From: Deltaproteobacteria bacterium
GTDB lineage: Bacteria; Myxococcota; JACRCW01
Assembly (NCBI GenBank): GCA_016218805.1
Contig: JACRCW010000159.1
Span: 1-64,000 of the forward strand
Length of the DNA: 64,000 bases
Direction: 5' to 3'
Position 1 is the stretch's first letter. Every line of letters starts with the position of its first letter. The position numbers and the translations under genes were made by a program. This document shows, in pieces, positions 34,256-42,237 of the stretch. The notes under the pieces were generated by a model. It did not search any database and was not told the DNA's origin. It saw only the letters and a list, made by a program, of their open reading frames with translations.

Positions 34256-35665
34256 TCAGCGCACGCGGCGCCGCGCCAGGAACAGCGCTGACAGCAGCAC
34301 GCGCCACCACGCCGGCGCCCGGCCGGGCGCTGCGCACGCACAGCCGTCGTCGGGGGGAGGTTCCTCGGGGACTTCTTCGTAGGGCGGGTAATACGGCCCT
34401 GCCGCGTCCGCGGTGCCCCCGTCCGGGCGCGGTGTGCCGGCATCCGTCCGCGGCCCCGCGTCCGGCACCACCACCACACCACCGTCCTCCTTGGGCGGGG
34501 CCACCGCGCAGCGCAGGTCACCCGCAGCACCGCGGCACGCCAGGCCCACGCACTGGTACGGGTTCAGGCACGCGTCGCCGGTGGGGCGCGTGCCGGGCTC
34601 CGCGCAGATCCCCGCGCCGTAACCCAGGTCAATGCACCGCGCCGGTGCGGTGCAGTTCCCGTCCCGCATGCACAGGTGGCGGCAGCGGTAGGCACCGTCA
34701 AAGTCCAGCAGGCAGCGGTTGTTGGACCCGCCACCGCAGTCCGCGTCCACCACGCAACCCCGCCCCGGTGCGCAGACGTGCGCGGCGCCCACCGCCGCGC
34801 AGGCGTCCCCCGCCTGGCAGTCCGTGCCACCCGGTGTGCACGCGCGGGAGCACGCCCCCGGGTCGTACCCGTCGGTGCTCCACACGTCCCGCAGGCACAG
34901 GCCCGTGGTGCACTGGTTGTCATCCACGCATTCCGCGCCGTAGCCCGCGGCGCCCGGGACGCACGCGCCGCCGTTGCACACCAGGCGCGTGTTTTCACCG
35001 CCCAGCCGGCGGATGAGCAGCGGGCAGTCCGCGTTGGAGGTGCACGTGAACGCGCCGGGCGACAGGTAGCGCGCACCGCGGATGTCGTCGTCAGACAACT
35101 GGTGGCGGAACGTGGTCCCCCGGCGGGCCCCCGTGTACATGGCCACGCGCGAATCCCACGCGTGCCACAGCCCCAGCAGGTGGCCCAGTTCGTGGCCGGC
35201 AATGGACTGCACGTCCACGCCGAACGGGTTGCCGTCCGTGACCCACGGCGCCTCGGTGCCGTTGAGCAGCACGTCCGCGTCCGTGAACGTGCTGGGGTTG
35301 CCCGCCTGGATGTTGGGAATGGTGGTGCCCAGCGCGCCGTCCGCGGCGCCGGGCCAGCCGCTCTCCACAAAGATCACCGCGTTCACGCCGTCATCGCCCC
35401 ACGCGCGTGATGAGACGGGCGCGCCCTCCGTCACCGTGAGCCGCCCGCCCAGCGCCGTATTCCATTGGGTGATCGCCGCGCGCACGGCCGCAAGATCAGA
35501 CCCGTCCGTGACGTCATCCGAGCCGTCTGACTGCAGGACCACACCCACGCTGGAAGACGGCCAGCGCACCGGCGCGTTGGGATGGGAGGGATCCGTGAAC
35601 GCGGCGAAGGCCCGCGCAGGGAAGGGCAGGGCGGCGGCCAGCGCCACGCCGAGGAGGCGCCTCAT
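34256..35665 (-). CDS. Secreted matrixin-type zinc metalloprotease with MYXO-CTERM-like tail
   Basis: A 469-aa exported protein: signal peptide (MRRLLGVALAAALPFPARAF), catalytic domain with the metzincin motif 'SIAGHELGHLLGLWHAWDSR' (HExGHxxGxxH) and downstream Met ('VAMYTGARRG'), then a series of Cys-rich repeats of the 'CNADCPLL / CVDDNQCTTGLC / CVVDADCGG' type, a Pro/Asp-rich linker, and a C-terminal segment 'CACAAPGRAPAWWRVLL' + 'ALFLARRRVR'. That end (Cys, hydrophobic helix, basic stop) is like a MYXO-CTERM sorting signal that anchors proteins at the surface. The ATG overlaps the stop of the 167-aa gene by 4 bp. A substrate is not known. Confidence 0.82.
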   Translation of the reverse strand: MRRLLGVALAAALPFPARAFAAFTDPSHPNAPVRWPSSSVGVVLQSDGSDDVTDGSDLAAVRAAITQWNTALGGRLTVTEGAPVSSRAWGDDGVNAVIFVESGWPGAADGALGTTIPNIQAGNPSTFTDADVLLNGTEAPWVTDGNPFGVDVQSIAGHELGHLLGLWHAWDSRVAMYTGARRGTTFRHQLSDDDIRGARYLSPGAFTCTSNADCPLLIRRLGGENTRLVCNGGACVPGAAGYGAECVDDNQCTTGLCLRDVWSTDGYDPGACSRACTPGGTDCQAGDACAAVGAAHVCAPGRGCVVDADCGGGSNNRCLLDFDGAYRCRHLCMRDGNCTAPARCIDLGYGAGICAEPGTRPTGDACLNPYQCVGLACRGAAGDLRCAVAPPKEDGGVVVVPDAGPRTDAGTPRPDGGTADAAGPYYPPYEEVPEEPPPDDGCACAAPGRAPAWWRVLLSALFLARRRVR

Positions 35666-36165
35666 GGCCGGCCCCGCAGCAACGGGCGCAGCGCGTCCAG
35701 TGTGAGGGTGCGGGCGGGGGACACGCGCAGGGCGGTGCCGTCCCACACGGGCGCGGTGGCCTGCCAGGACAGGATTCCGCCGGGACCCACGCGCAGGCGG
35801 CCCTGGCTCATGCCCGCAAGGTGGAATTCCCCCGGCGCGGGCGCTGCGCGCAGGAACAGCACCACGCGGTCACCCGGCTGCAGGTCCGCCACGCCCTCCA
35901 CGGGCTGGATGTCGCGGCCCACCCGGCCGCCCAACTGCACCACCCGCACGCTGTCCGGGCGCGGCCCGGCCAGCACTTCGTCCACGGTGACGTCTGTGAG
36001 CGTGTGGATCACCCGCCCGCGCCACTCCGCGCGCGAAGCGCCCACCGTCCCGCGCACCACCACGGCGGAACGGGCGGCCAGCTCCTCAAGGGTGAACGCC
36101 TGGAGCACCGTGGCTGCCGCGGGCGCCGTGCAGGCGACCGCCGCCACCAACGCCATCACGCGCAT
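35662..36165 (-). CDS. Secreted protein upstream of metalloprotease, hypothetical
   Basis: A 167-aa protein with a signal peptide (MRVMALVAAVACTAPAAATV) and a beta-rich body ('HTLTDVTVDEVLAGPRPDSV', 'PGDRVVLFLRAAPAPGEFHL'). The gene overlaps the metalloprotease start by 4 bp, so the two are translationally coupled. Such pairs suggest a propeptide-like inhibitor, chaperone or partner for the protease, but that is inference. No family is recognised. Confidence 0.7.
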   Translation of the reverse strand: MRVMALVAAVACTAPAAATVLQAFTLEELAARSAVVVRGTVGASRAEWRGRVIHTLTDVTVDEVLAGPRPDSVRVVQLGGRVGRDIQPVEGVADLQPGDRVVLFLRAAPAPGEFHLAGMSQGRLRVGPGGILSWQATAPVWDGTALRVSPARTLTLDALRPLLRGRP

Positions 36166-36740: not shown

Positions 36741-39700
36741 TCAACCCTGCTCCTTGCCCTTGCCCTGCAGGTCAATCAGGGCGCGCAACCGGCGCGCCAG
36801 CACGGTGAAAAGCCCGCGCGTGAGCTCCGGCCGGTCCATGACCAGGTCCATGAACGCGTCACAGTGGATGCTGAGCAGTTCCGCGCCCAGCCCGCTGGCC
36901 ACCACGGCGGTCGTCGGGCGCGGGCCGCGGTCCAGCAGGCTCACCTGGCCCAGGGATTCGCCCGGACCCAGCCGAAGGAACGCGCGCTGCTGCCGGATGA
37001 GGTCCACCTGGCCGCTGACCAGCACCATCATCGTCTCGCCGGGCTCGCCCTCGCGGTACAGCACCTCGCCGGGCTCCGCGTGGCGCTCTTCCGCCACCGC
37101 CGCCATGGCGGCCAGGTCGTCCACGGACAGGCCCTCAAACAGGTCCACCTTCTCCAGCGCCAGGATGCGGGATAGGAGCTTTTCGTCCATGGGGACTGCC
37201 TCCTCGGAGTCCGTGGGGTCATTGACCTGCGGCAGTGGGATGTCCGGGTCCGTGGGCGGCATGGGCATCAGCAGCGCGGCCGCCGGGCGCGAGGATTCAT
37301 CATCCCGGATGACACCGCTGCGCAGCACGCGCTGCGCCCAGACGGCCACCAGCGGGTCCGTGCTCACGCGCAGCGCGCGGACGGTGTCCGCCACCTGGGC
37401 CCACGGCACGTTGCGGTCACCGCGGATGGGTGGCGCGGGTTCCAGCACGCGGATGACCTCGTCATGCAGCGGGTCTCCCTGCAGCGCCACGTCCATGACC
37501 TCCAGCGCGTCACCGCGGAGCATCTGCACCTCCTCCAACGACGCGCCCAGCAGCGCGCGCCGCTCCGCCTCCGCCAGGCGCCGCGCCGCGCGGTCCATCC
37601 GCTCCGTGCCGCGGTGCAGCCCCAGCAGGCGCACGGACATCTGCAGGTTCTGCAGCAGCCGGTCAAAGGTGGTGTGCCGCAGCATGTTCCACGCGCGTCC
37701 TGCGGGGCCGCCGCGCGGGGCGGAGACGTCACCGGCGGCCAGCGCGTGGCACAGCGGCCGGTAGTGCTCAAACGCGGCCAGGCGGCGGCGGCACGCGTCA
37801 TCCGTGCGGTCCCGGTCCAGCGGGATCTCCGGGTGGCGGTGATGCAGCTGGAACAATGAACTGGCAATGCGCCACCGCAGCGACGGGTTGTCCCGGATGT
37901 TGCTGAACAGCAGCGCGTCCGCAGCCAGCGGCGTTCCCACCAGCCGCAGCAGCCGGGGGATCTCAATGCGCACGGCCAGCGGCAGTGAGCGGTCATCCAG
38001 GTTGGCGCGCAACTGCGGGACCACGGCGTCACCCAGCCGGGCCAGGGCCTGGCGCGCCTCGGCGCGGTCCTGCCGCGCGGCCAGGCGGGCCTGCACCGCG
38101 GGCACCAGGTCCATGACGTCATCCGGACGGCCGCGCCGCACCGCAGCCTCCGCCAGGTGCGCCGCGGATTGCAGCGCAATGGCGCGCACGGACGCCTCAG
38201 CGTCACGCAGCAGCGTGGGAAGCTCATCCACCGCCCACGACGGAGGCAGCTCACCCAGCAGGCGCGCCAGCTCGCGGCGTTCCGCGGTGGGGGCCTGGCC
38301 CCGGCGGGACAGCAGTTCCTCCAGGCGCCCTTCCGCTTCAGTGCGCGCCTCCGGCAGGCGGTGGAGCGCGGCGACGACGGCGCACGACACGCCGGGGTCC
38401 GCGTCATGCAGGTAGGGCCGCAGGATCTCCACCGCGCGCTCCGGGTTGACGCGTGCCAACGCGCGTGCCGCCGCGGCCCGCGGGCGCCGGCGGTCCGCGG
38501 CAAGGATGGCGCCCAGGGTGGATTCAATGGCGGCCGTGGGGTGCGCGGGCACCAGATCCAGCCCGGCCAGGCGCACGGCCTCGTCGGGGTGGGTCAGCAG
38601 GTCCGCCAGGTGGTCCTCCGGGCGGAAGCCGCGGTGCCGCTTGAGGATGTCCAGCGCGGCCAGCACGTCCGTGGGCTGCGGTGAGCGCAGCGCGTGCCGC
38701 AGCGCATCCCGCGTGGCGCGGTCCACCACGTCCACGGTGAGCACCACGCGCGCGCGGGACCCGCGCAGCTTCTCCTCCAGCGCGCCCAGGTACGCGCCGC
38801 GCAGCAGGCGGATGAGCACCAGGCAGGCCACCGCGGGGAACGCCACCAGCCACGGCGAGGCCAGGCGCGGAAACACGGACACCAGCCCGGAGATGAACGC
38901 GCCCGCGCCGGCCATCCCGCCCTTCTTCACCAGCCCGTCAATGAACGCGCGCACGGCGGGGCGGTTCTCCGCCGGCACCGGGTTGTACAGCAGCTGCATG
39001 CCGGCCTGCAGGATGGAGTAGCTGCCCGCCATCTCCAGCGCCTTCATGACAACGAGCAGCCAGAATGCGCCGGTCAGCGCGGCCGCGCCGGAAGTGAACA
39101 GCAGCAGCACGGGCACCACTGCCAGGAACAGGAACAGGCCGCCGCGGTCCAGCACGCGGTGCGTGAGGAACACCTGGTAGAGCACCGCGGCCAGCCCCAC
39201 GGCCGCGTTGAGGTCACCAAACAGCGCGGCCAGCTGCGGTTCTGTGAGCCGGTCCGCCGCGCCCAGGCGGAACACCCAGTCCACAAACGCGCCCAGGCCG
39301 GAGAACGTGGCGGCCAGCAGCGCCACCGCGCGCGGGTAGGTGCGGCCGGCCAGATAGCGGGCGCCGGCAAACATGCCCGGGTTGCGGCTGCGCTCCGGCG
39401 CGGTCCGCCCCGCGTCCGCCAGCAGGCCCAGCGCAGCCACCGTCACCAGCACGGAGACCACCGCGATGACAACGGAGCCCACCAGGTGCGCCAGCACGCG
39501 CGTGGCCAGGCCGCCCACCAACGCGCCCAGCATGCCGCCGGCGGAGATGAGCCCAAACGCACGCCGTGACGAACGCGCGTCAAACCAGCCGGACACCACG
39601 CTCCAGAACAGGATGGACAGGGTGGTCGCGTACAGCTCGCCCACGACGTACAGCGGTCCCAGCACCTGCGGGAGGTCCGCCAGGAACAACGCGCACGCGG

Positions 39701-39983
39701 CGGACACCAGCACGGCGAAGCCCCACGCGCCCGCGCGCAGCAGCGTGGCCGGCGTGTAGCGGGCCAGCGGGCCGGCAAGCATCACCGTGGTGAGTGCCAT
39801 CAGCACGGCGACGGAGATGTACAGCTGCGCCAGGCCCTCCGGCGGGCGGTGGGCCAGGTACAGCGCGTTGGTGGCGCACTTGAGCGCCGTGACCGACCCG
39901 ACGAAGGCCGCGTGGAACGCCGCCGCGCGCACCGTGTGGGGCGCCACGCTGCCAAGTCCCAGCCGCTCCAGCCAGCCGCTCAT
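36741..39983 (-). CDS. NTT-type nucleotide transporter-like membrane protein fused to HEAT repeats and a cNMP-binding domain
   Basis: A 1080-aa protein with three parts. Residues ~1-430 are a ~12-helix transporter-like module: 'NALYLAHRPPEGLAQLYISV', 'LFWSVVSGWFDARSSRRAFG', 'LGALVGGLATRVLA', matching ATP/ADP translocase (NTT/Npt) style. Residues ~430-930 are HEAT-like repeats ('LTHPDEAVRLAGLDLV', 'LRDAEASVRAIALQSAAHLA'). Residues ~935-1060 are a Crp-type cyclic-nucleotide domain ('VDLFEGLSVDDL', 'YREGEPGETMMVLVSGQVDL', 'GPRPTTAVVA'), where the usual Glu of the phosphate cassette is Gln ('SLGQVSLL'). The first ATG that starts the transporter is 39983; the open frame runs on to 40253. The neighbour at 40039 may be a partner. 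Which nucleotides, if any, are moved is unknown. Confidence 0.82.
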   Translation of the reverse strand: MSGWLERLGLGSVAPHTVRAAAFHAAFVGSVTALKCATNALYLAHRPPEGLAQLYISVAVLMALTTVMLAGPLARYTPATLLRAGAWGFAVLVSAACALFLADLPQVLGPLYVVGELYATTLSILFWSVVSGWFDARSSRRAFGLISAGGMLGALVGGLATRVLAHLVGSVVIAVVSVLVTVAALGLLADAGRTAPERSRNPGMFAGARYLAGRTYPRAVALLAATFSGLGAFVDWVFRLGAADRLTEPQLAALFGDLNAAVGLAAVLYQVFLTHRVLDRGGLFLFLAVVPVLLLFTSGAAALTGAFWLLVVMKALEMAGSYSILQAGMQLLYNPVPAENRPAVRAFIDGLVKKGGMAGAGAFISGLVSVFPRLASPWLVAFPAVACLVLIRLLRGAYLGALEEKLRGSRARVVLTVDVVDRATRDALRHALRSPQPTDVLAALDILKRHRGFRPEDHLADLLTHPDEAVRLAGLDLVPAHPTAAIESTLGAILAADRRRPRAAAARALARVNPERAVEILRPYLHDADPGVSCAVVAALHRLPEARTEAEGRLEELLSRRGQAPTAERRELARLLGELPPSWAVDELPTLLRDAEASVRAIALQSAAHLAEAAVRRGRPDDVMDLVPAVQARLAARQDRAEARQALARLGDAVVPQLRANLDDRSLPLAVRIEIPRLLRLVGTPLAADALLFSNIRDNPSLRWRIASSLFQLHHRHPEIPLDRDRTDDACRRRLAAFEHYRPLCHALAAGDVSAPRGGPAGRAWNMLRHTTFDRLLQNLQMSVRLLGLHRGTERMDRAARRLAEAERRALLGASLEEVQMLRGDALEVMDVALQGDPLHDEVIRVLEPAPPIRGDRNVPWAQVADTVRALRVSTDPLVAVWAQRVLRSGVIRDDESSRPAAALLMPMPPTDPDIPLPQVNDPTDSEEAVPMDEKLLSRILALEKVDLFEGLSVDDLAAMAAVAEERHAEPGEVLYREGEPGETMMVLVSGQVDLIRQQRAFLRLGPGESLGQVSLLDRGPRPTTAVVASGLGAELLSIHCDAFMDLVMDRPELTRGLFTVLARRLRALIDLQGKGKEQG

Positions 39984-40038: not shown

Positions 40039-42237
40039 TCACGGGCGGTCCACCGCCGCGGGTTGGTCAGGCTCCGTTGGGGGATGGGCCACGTGCCAGG
40101 TGTACGCGGCGAAGGCGAGGGCGCCCGCCAGGCAGAGGAGGGCCAGCGCCCACGACGTCCAGGGCACCGGCGGGGTGCCCGCGGCCCCGCGGCCCGCGCC
40201 AGCAGCCACGGTCCCGGGAGGCAGCGGCGGAATGCGCGTGAACAGCGCGCCAATGCGCCGGGTCACCACCAGCGGCACGTTCACCGCCCAGCCGTTGGCC
40301 TCCAGCAGGATGCTCATGTCGCGCCGGCGCAGCTTGAGCCAGCCCAGGAATCCCGCAAAGCCCGCCACCACCGCCACCAGGCTGGCCACCGCGGCCACGG
40401 CACTGAGCGGATTGATGGATGACAGTGCGCTCACCGCGTACGCGAACGCGGAGCCCAGCGCGGCAAACGCGATGCTGCCGCCCAGCAGCAGGTCCCGCCC
40501 GTTGAACCCGCCCGGGGCGGCGGGCTTGACGTCGGGCGGCGGGGTGGCGGGAGGTGCCGGGGCCGGGGCCGGGAGACCCGGGAGCGCGGCGCCCGTGCTG
40601 AGCGCCCGCTTTTCCGCCGCGGCCAGCTGCGCGGCCGCCAGCTCATCAATCTTGCGGGACACCAACTGCGACGCGCGCCGGAACGGCGCCTTCATTGCCT
40701 CCAGGATGGAGATGGGGTTCTCCACCAGGTCCACCACGGTGGCGTCCCACTCGCGCCCGTCCAGGTCCACAAAGATGCCGCGTTTCCCCACCCGGATCCG
40801 GCCGCGTTCACCCGCCGTCACCGGCGCGGCGATCTCATAAGACGGCGCGGTGCCGTCCTTGTCCGAAATGGACGCGTAGACCAGGAACAGCAGGCTCTCC
40901 GCCGCCACCTTCTTGTGCGCGCTCCGGTCCTCCACCCGGACGCAGAACTCCAGGCGCCGGCCGTCAATGACCAGCGATCCCATCTCCAGCAGCGCGTGCC
41001 GCTCCGGGTCAAAGATGGCCGAGAAGTTCACAAAGTTGTTCACGAGGTCCAGCAGCCAGCGCTGGTGCAGCACCAGTCGTTCCAACTCGGACAGCTGTTC
41101 CACCTCGGGGGCGGCCGCCCGGTCCACGGCAATGAAGTGGCGCACCCGCCCCGGCAGCGGCCCGTCCAGCGCCGCGCGCAGCGCGCTCTCGGACAGCTTC
41201 TCAAACGGCTCCGCCGGCCGCTCACGTTGCCAGGCCTGGTATCCGTCAAACACGGCGCGTGCGCGGCGCCAGTCATCACGCGTGATGGAGGTGGTGTCCG
41301 CCCCCAGCGCGCGGGACAGCACCGCCGCCAGCTCCATCAGCCGCGCCCGGAACGCCGGGTTCACCCGGCCCGTCAGCGGCAGCCTCCCGTCGGCCTGGGG
41401 CGGCGCCAGCGGGCTCTCCGCCAGGTACCTCTCAATCGCCGCTCCACTCCCGGCGCGCAGCGCCTTGAGCTCGTCGGCGGACAGCCGGGACGCCGCGCCG
41501 TCCACGGACTCGGCGGCCAGCAGGTCACAGTGCAGGAAGTACTCCTCCACCCTGGCATCCAGCCCGCAGATGGCCGCGGCCGCCGCGGCCGTGCCTTCGC
41601 CCCAGGGGAGCAGCGCAGGCTCCGCCGCCGCCCGCGCCTTCCATGAAAGATACGCGGCCCCCCGCTCCAGGAACCGGTCCAGTTCCGCCGTCCCCACGCC
41701 GTCCTCGCCGCTGGCATCACGCGATCCCCCGACGACACCAAGCACGTCCTGCATGAACGCCGCCACCGGCGGCTCCGTGACGCATGCGGGCGGGACAATG
41801 CCGTCCCCGTTGGCCAGCGTCTTGGCGTAGGACGAGCGGAAGGCGCGGATGTCCGCCAGCGCCAGCCGCGTGCGGTCCGGTGCGTTGATCTCGCGCAACA
41901 GGTGCTCCGCCGCCGCGGCCAGGCGTTTTCCGTCGTCATTGCTGCGGTCCAGGTCCTCCAGCACCAGCACGTCTGTCCGGTCCGCCAGCCGCGCGTGCCG
42001 CGCCAGGCGGCGGAACAACCAGTCCCGGGCGCGGATGAGCTGCGCCACGCGGATGCGGCCCTTGCTGTCGGTGTCTACAAACGCAAGGAAGGCGGGATCA
42101 CAGTGCAGGTCACGCAGGGGTGCGCTGGTGGCGGCCCAGCGCGCGGCGTCCAGGCGGTCAATCACGCCCAGCTGATCCGCGTCATCCACAACGGCCTGCA
42201 GGCTGCCGCCCAGATTCCGGAAGGTCATGGGTGCCAT
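40039..42237 (-). CDS. 732-aa C-terminally membrane-anchored protein, EF-hand-like N-terminus
   Basis: A large protein of unknown function. Near the N-terminus 'FVDTDSKGRIRVAQLIRARD' resembles an EF-hand loop (D-x-D-x-x-G-x-I) and a second acidic loop occurs at 'ASGEDGVGTAELDRFLERG'. The centre is helical with a beta segment ('RIRVGKRGIFVDLDGREWDA'), then a Pro-rich linker and about three hydrophobic helices ('GGSIAFAALGSAFAYAVSAL', 'AAVASLVAVVAGFAGFLGWL', 'WTSWALALLCLAGALAFAAY'). It sits 55 bp upstream of the NTT-like gene and 17 bp downstream of galE on the same strand, so they may form one transcript. No known family is recognised. Confidence 0.7.
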   Translation of the reverse strand: MAPMTFRNLGGSLQAVVDDADQLGVIDRLDAARWAATSAPLRDLHCDPAFLAFVDTDSKGRIRVAQLIRARDWLFRRLARHARLADRTDVLVLEDLDRSNDDGKRLAAAAEHLLREINAPDRTRLALADIRAFRSSYAKTLANGDGIVPPACVTEPPVAAFMQDVLGVVGGSRDASGEDGVGTAELDRFLERGAAYLSWKARAAAEPALLPWGEGTAAAAAAICGLDARVEEYFLHCDLLAAESVDGAASRLSADELKALRAGSGAAIERYLAESPLAPPQADGRLPLTGRVNPAFRARLMELAAVLSRALGADTTSITRDDWRRARAVFDGYQAWQRERPAEPFEKLSESALRAALDGPLPGRVRHFIAVDRAAAPEVEQLSELERLVLHQRWLLDLVNNFVNFSAIFDPERHALLEMGSLVIDGRRLEFCVRVEDRSAHKKVAAESLLFLVYASISDKDGTAPSYEIAAPVTAGERGRIRVGKRGIFVDLDGREWDATVVDLVENPISILEAMKAPFRRASQLVSRKIDELAAAQLAAAEKRALSTGAALPGLPAPAPAPPATPPPDVKPAAPGGFNGRDLLLGGSIAFAALGSAFAYAVSALSSINPLSAVAAVASLVAVVAGFAGFLGWLKLRRRDMSILLEANGWAVNVPLVVTRRIGALFTRIPPLPPGTVAAGAGRGAAGTPPVPWTSWALALLCLAGALAFAAYTWHVAHPPTEPDQPAAVDRP

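Follow-up and report, generated by a model that had tools for sequence, protein, structure and literature searches.

The nucleotide transporters of the NTT family are usually taken as a mark of parasites living inside other cells. Major, Embley and Williams described in 2017 fusions of an NTT domain with HEAT repeats (NTT-HEAT) and with HEAT repeats plus a cyclic-nucleotide-binding domain (NTT-HEAT-cNBD) (PMC5381601). In the sections of that paper that treat these proteins, the NTT-HEAT-cNBD form is reported from Cyanobacteria, Deltaproteobacteria, Bacilli, Marinimicrobia and oomycetes, with a transfer to the oomycetes, and a separate cNBD gene beside NTT-HEAT is reported too. The same sections propose that the fusions bind cAMP and are controlled by it, describe the fused NTTs of cyanobacteria and Chlamydia as functionally uncharacterised, give no known substrate for any NTT-HEAT protein and say nothing on the residues of the cNBD cassette (PMC5381601). 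An open-access literature search retrieved no later functional study of NTT-HEAT fusions, absence from such a search being no proof that none exists.

The protein analysed here agrees with the 2017 fusions in its three modules and in their order, and as far as those sections describe them both share a mostly free-living bacterial spread and the occurrence of unfused NTT-HEAT genes beside a cNBD gene (PMC5381601). It is therefore the Myxococcota form of a known fusion and its architecture is not new, whereas the cNBD cassette of the myxobacterial group is variable and reads Gln in this protein. The gene lies in the window, that is, the whole stretch of 64,000 nucleotides that was analysed, as a single open frame at 36741-39983 on the minus strand, as are all the features of the window given below. 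It runs from an ATG at 39983 to a stop exactly at 36741 and encodes 1080 amino acids plus the stop, with no internal stop codon. An alternative ORF with a TTG start (40253) is longer and overlaps the upstream gene, and the alignment of the orthologues begins only at about residue 12-20; therefore, the ATG at 39983 is the better start. A simple promoter and terminator scan gave nothing informative.

Regarding its distribution, full-length orthologues were found in 28 other Myxococcota genomes, with fragments in two more, among the 58 genomes searched, so the fusion is a common myxobacterial gene. These 28 orthologues are collinear with the window protein and 32-43% identical to it, which rules out an assembly artefact and a chance or frameshifted fusion. 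A scan of named genomes with the single window protein gave no match, whereas the same scan with a six-sequence alignment recovered eight named relatives among Deltaproteobacteria/Myxococcota (MAGs) and one extra match in Actinotignum, which covered the cNBD only.

The N-terminal module is an NTT domain of the ATP/ADP translocase type with an MFS fold (residues 1-407, 38763-39983), with 12 membrane helices and both ends predicted to be cytosolic. It is followed by a HEAT-repeat solenoid (residues about 422-890, 37314-38720; PF13646 at 3.4e-10 and PF03130), a disordered linker (residues 896-930, 37194-37298; pLDDT below 50 in the full-length model) and a Crp-type cyclic-nucleotide-binding domain (residues 934-1075, 36759-37184; PF00027 at 2.3e-13), which matched CRP, PKA, PKG, Epac and HCN structures. 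The Pfam matches to cNMP_binding and HEAT_2 are both far over the cut-off, and no DNA-binding domain was found C-terminal to the Crp-type domain. The full-length model (pLDDT 86) has the HEAT solenoid, the disordered linker and the CNB fold; the HEAT region is helical, with pLDDT mostly between 80 and 96 and a dip to 67 in the block 751-760. In the loops of the NTT domain, 23 Lys/Arg residues are predicted inside against five outside, which places the HEAT repeats and the cNBD in the cytosol. By sequence and structure comparison the protein is thus an inner-membrane NTT-family transporter whose cytosolic part consists of a HEAT solenoid and, at the C-terminus, a CNB domain. Its identity as an NTT-HEAT-cNBD protein is practically certain: the initial annotation had read an NTT-type transporter, HEAT repeats and a Crp-type domain, and Pfam, the family profile, Foldseek and the models all bear this out.

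The membrane domain needed the closest examination. With the single sequence, the TLC/NTT family PF03219 scored 22.1 bits against a cut-off of 21, which taken alone would be a marginal match, and MFS_1 came near it with 18.6 bits, under its own cut-off. As NTTs themselves have the MFS fold, these figures might suit an unrelated MFS protein without NTT kinship, an outcome that the initial annotation had itself raised. However, a profile built from the membrane domains of 29 sequences and run against all PDB chains at E <= 10 matched only NTT1 chains, namely 9j3n from C. pneumoniae (5.9e-10) and 9j3j from A. thaliana (2.9e-8). Furthermore, the AlphaFold2 (AF2) model of residues 1-430 (pLDDT 91.5, 12 membrane helices) retrieved NTT1 structures at Foldseek ranks 1 to 4, with TM-scores of 0.57-0.75 by query; general MFS proteins came next, and the best NTT1 structures led by a factor of over 100 in E-value. 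Within the family, PF03219 was matched in 23 of 29 members and MFS_1 in 17 of 29. The NTT assignment is therefore secure, since profile and fold search agree on NTT1; an unrelated MFS family is rejected, and we consider it extremely improbable.

Compared with the NTT1 proteins of Chlamydia pneumoniae and Arabidopsis (9j3n, 9j3j-9j3m and 9j3o), the membrane domain is homologous and shares the 12-helix fold, although identity is at most 17% and the window protein adds the C-terminal HEAT repeats and cNBD, neither of which single-domain NTTs have. We take Lys155, Glu245, Glu385 and Lys527 to be the charged residues essential for AtNTT1; Glu245, Glu385 and Lys527 all land on Glu or Lys of 9j3j at one constant offset of 84, which supports this numbering. 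The acids of NTT1 are shared: in the profile alignment to 9j3j the Glu245 column is Glu116 (39636-39638), acidic in 29/29 members (21 Glu, 8 Asp), and the Glu385 column is Asp235 (39279-39281), which is invariant (29/29). The Lys527 column, in contrast, is Met357 (38913-38915), and Lys never occurs there in the family, nor in the unfused paralogues. The Lys155 column is probably Thr38 (39870-39872) of TM1; at this point an Arg-Asp pair is found in the unfused NTT-HEAT paralogues, and Thr, Ala or Ser followed by Asn in the fused family (Thr38-Asn39 here). Lys35, Arg239, Arg341 and Arg345 are invariant basic residues of the family, invariant charged and Gly residues occur along the membrane helices, and mean column identity is 47% in both the membrane-core and the whole-protein alignments. 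Judged from these alignments, the transport core is conserved, yet its charge pattern differs from that of ATP/ADP exchangers, and therefore the identity of the substrate should not be assumed. Actually, nucleotide exchange may be lost or altered, because there is no Lys at the Lys527 column and the Arg-Asp pair of TM1 is gone.

Regarding the cNBD, alignment to CRP proteins, including that of M. tuberculosis, places Gln1013 (36945-36947) at the cassette site where most CNB domains that bind cAMP have Glu. The cassette Arg is retained nine residues further on as Arg1022 (36918-36920), and it is followed by Pro, not by Ser, Thr or Ala. The initial annotation was correct that the cassette Glu is Gln here, but its suggestion that ligand binding may thereby be changed or lost needs correcting, as Gln by itself is no argument for loss in this protein. 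Epac1, a human cAMP sensor, also has Gln at this position, with the Arg nine residues on, and still binds cAMP; in an Epac1-based sensor the improvement brought by Q270E was limited to an EC50 of 4.4 µM in place of 10.7 µM (PMC3831346). The spacing also equals that of the PfPKG cassette, E484/R493 (PMC12422582). Since Epac1 binds cAMP with Gln and the spacing to Arg is kept, we rejected the equation of Gln with lost binding; by analogy, the Gln would be compatible with cAMP binding. The likeness to Epac1 is functional at most, a special kinship with the window cNBD being unsupported, and Epac1 controls a guanine-nucleotide exchange factor whereas the window cNBD is fused to a transporter. In this last respect the sperm Na+/H+ exchanger SLC9C1 is analogous, as it is also a transporter with a cytosolic cNBD and appears in the Foldseek list of the full-length protein; nevertheless, its transporter fold is unrelated to NTT and its TM-score is about 0.12 over the whole, so it was rejected as an overall structural match.

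Of 30 proteins in the orthologue group, ten have Gln at the Glu site of the cassette, eight Glu, five Gly, four Ser, two Asp and one His, and at the Arg site 21 have Arg and nine His, counts in which members of the same family are close relatives and thus represent few independent events. All the His cases at the Arg site belong to one family (f5), which also carries Gly or Ser at the Glu site, and this family has likely lost cAMP binding, to judge from its residues. Because of this cassette, cAMP sensing would not be universal in the orthologue group. Another family, f10, keeps Glu and Arg in seven of its eight members, the eighth having Asp. Elsewhere in the cNBD, Asp1018, Phe1044, Asp1046, Leu1047 and Asp1050 are conserved in 29/29.

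The genome that carries the window gene also has a second NTT-HEAT gene, without cNBD, at L045:7507-10491. On a different contig of the same genome, a cNBD with a canonical FGE...PRSA cassette is encoded on its own (L119:1399-1818) and may be the partner of that NTT-HEAT gene. In other genomes, 11 NTT-HEAT loci have a separate cNBD in the same stretch, with the cassette Glu in 10/11 and the Arg in 11/11. As unfused paralogues adjoin separate cNBD genes with canonical cassettes, the NTT, HEAT and cNBD modules have been tied together repeatedly. In a tree of the membrane domains, built from the NTT-HEAT sequences of this one phylum, with single-domain NTTs and other phyla left out, most fused proteins stand apart from the unfused ones and at least two changes between the two states are needed. 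One NTT-HEAT-cNBD protein (L087:537-3791) falls inside the unfused clade and has an intact FGE...PRSA cassette with both Glu and Arg; this is a clear case of an independent second fusion, apparently a younger one. A third fused lineage (L088-L091) is divergent and old, with Ile, Val or Leu at the cassette Glu site and with the Trp of TM4 replaced by Gly. Family f5 has a conserved operon (L056:4024-12218; also in L055, L057, L058, L059 and L066) in which NTT-HEAT genes, usually two in tandem but a single one in L066, are joined by genes for a DUF1571 protein and a ROK-family kinase and by a separately encoded cNBD whose cassette is canonical. The DUF1571 protein and the ROK kinase may be clues to the substrate.

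Around the fusion gene, no neighbour is conserved outside one family. A gene of 732 codons with no Pfam match (40039-42237) lies 55 bp upstream on the same strand; it has relatives in 19 other genomes (20/56 including the window's own), which never adjoin the fusion. The gene at 34256-35746 encodes a protein that looks secreted and has Cys-rich repeats along with a matrixin (M10) metalloprotease domain. A Ser/Thr kinase gene occurs near some orthologues and is absent near the window gene. As nothing is conserved near the window gene, we rejected the neighbours as a guide to function. Regarding the genome as a whole, 17 matches to class III cyclase domains and 28 to cNMP-binding domains were found, and a cAMP signal is therefore likely to exist in this organism. 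In addition, its 6.4-Mb size is unlike that of the genome of an energy parasite, which agrees with the initial annotation in setting energy parasitism aside.

The most likely function, as far as sequence comparison can suggest it, would be the regulated exchange of nucleotides, or of anions related to them, and not energy parasitism, and the putative gated or signalling role that the initial annotation had proposed is plausible. The NTT domain would work by alternating access, with nucleotides or some related phosphorylated anion as the exchanged substrate. A ligand in the cytosol would be sensed by the CNB domain, in the simplest case cAMP bound at the Epac1-like Gln/Arg cassette, and the resulting change would reach the transporter's cytosolic side by way of the HEAT solenoid, so that transport would be adjusted to the state of the cell. 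We hold this mechanism as a whole only tentatively, at slightly less than an even chance. Its regulatory step is where a rival reading enters, in which transport is intact but the fused CNB domain has ceased to sense cyclic nucleotides; the domain would instead have a structural role, serve oligomerisation or the docking of proteins, or bind another ligand. Several Crp/Fnr-type domains do bind ligands other than cyclic nucleotides, and both the spread of residues at the cassette of the orthologue group, with Arg replaced by His in nine of 30, and the Ile/Val/Leu of L088-L091 would fit such a loss, by contrast with the nearly uniform Glu and Arg of the separate cNBDs beside the unfused paralogues. 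The other conserved residues of the domain indicate that it is constrained for something. However, the window protein keeps the Arg and has the very residue with which Epac1 binds cAMP, and f10 retains the full cassette in nearly all members, so we regard this reading as possible but not the one to be preferred.

It is the transport step itself that is in doubt if the NTT domain were a transceptor, binding a nucleotide-like ligand without transport and signalling through the HEAT repeats and cNBD to protein partners. The loss of the TM1 Arg-Asp pair, the lack of a Lys527 equivalent, the long cytosolic scaffold and the position of the fused group apart from its unfused NTT-HEAT paralogues all lean that way, whereas a membrane core about as conserved as the whole protein, with its invariant charged and Gly residues, is what is expected of a working transporter, and no partner gene conserved nearby was found; we judge this reading unlikely. 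A broader version, in which the fused Myxococcota proteins are functionally separate from the operons of unfused NTT-HEAT and cNBD genes, with the basic-acidic pair of TM1 gone and the strict cNMP cassette no longer kept in most lineages, would make them either transceptors or transporters of a new substrate, with a ligand input that is Epac-like or entirely new, and seems to us rather unlikely as well. The regulated exchanger is thus the reading that we retain.

The conservation of this fusion in myxobacterial genomes of free-living size shows again that reading an NTT as the sign of a parasite is unsafe. What this analysis adds beyond the known fusion is the comparison of the cassette and of TM1, which makes cAMP control testable between relatives. 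Through the cassettes, the cAMP control proposed in 2017 for these transporters can be tested directly, because the predicted binding of cAMP differs among close relatives, which have Glu and Arg, the Epac1-like Gln and Arg of the window protein, or neither, as in f5, and this difference would be measurable.
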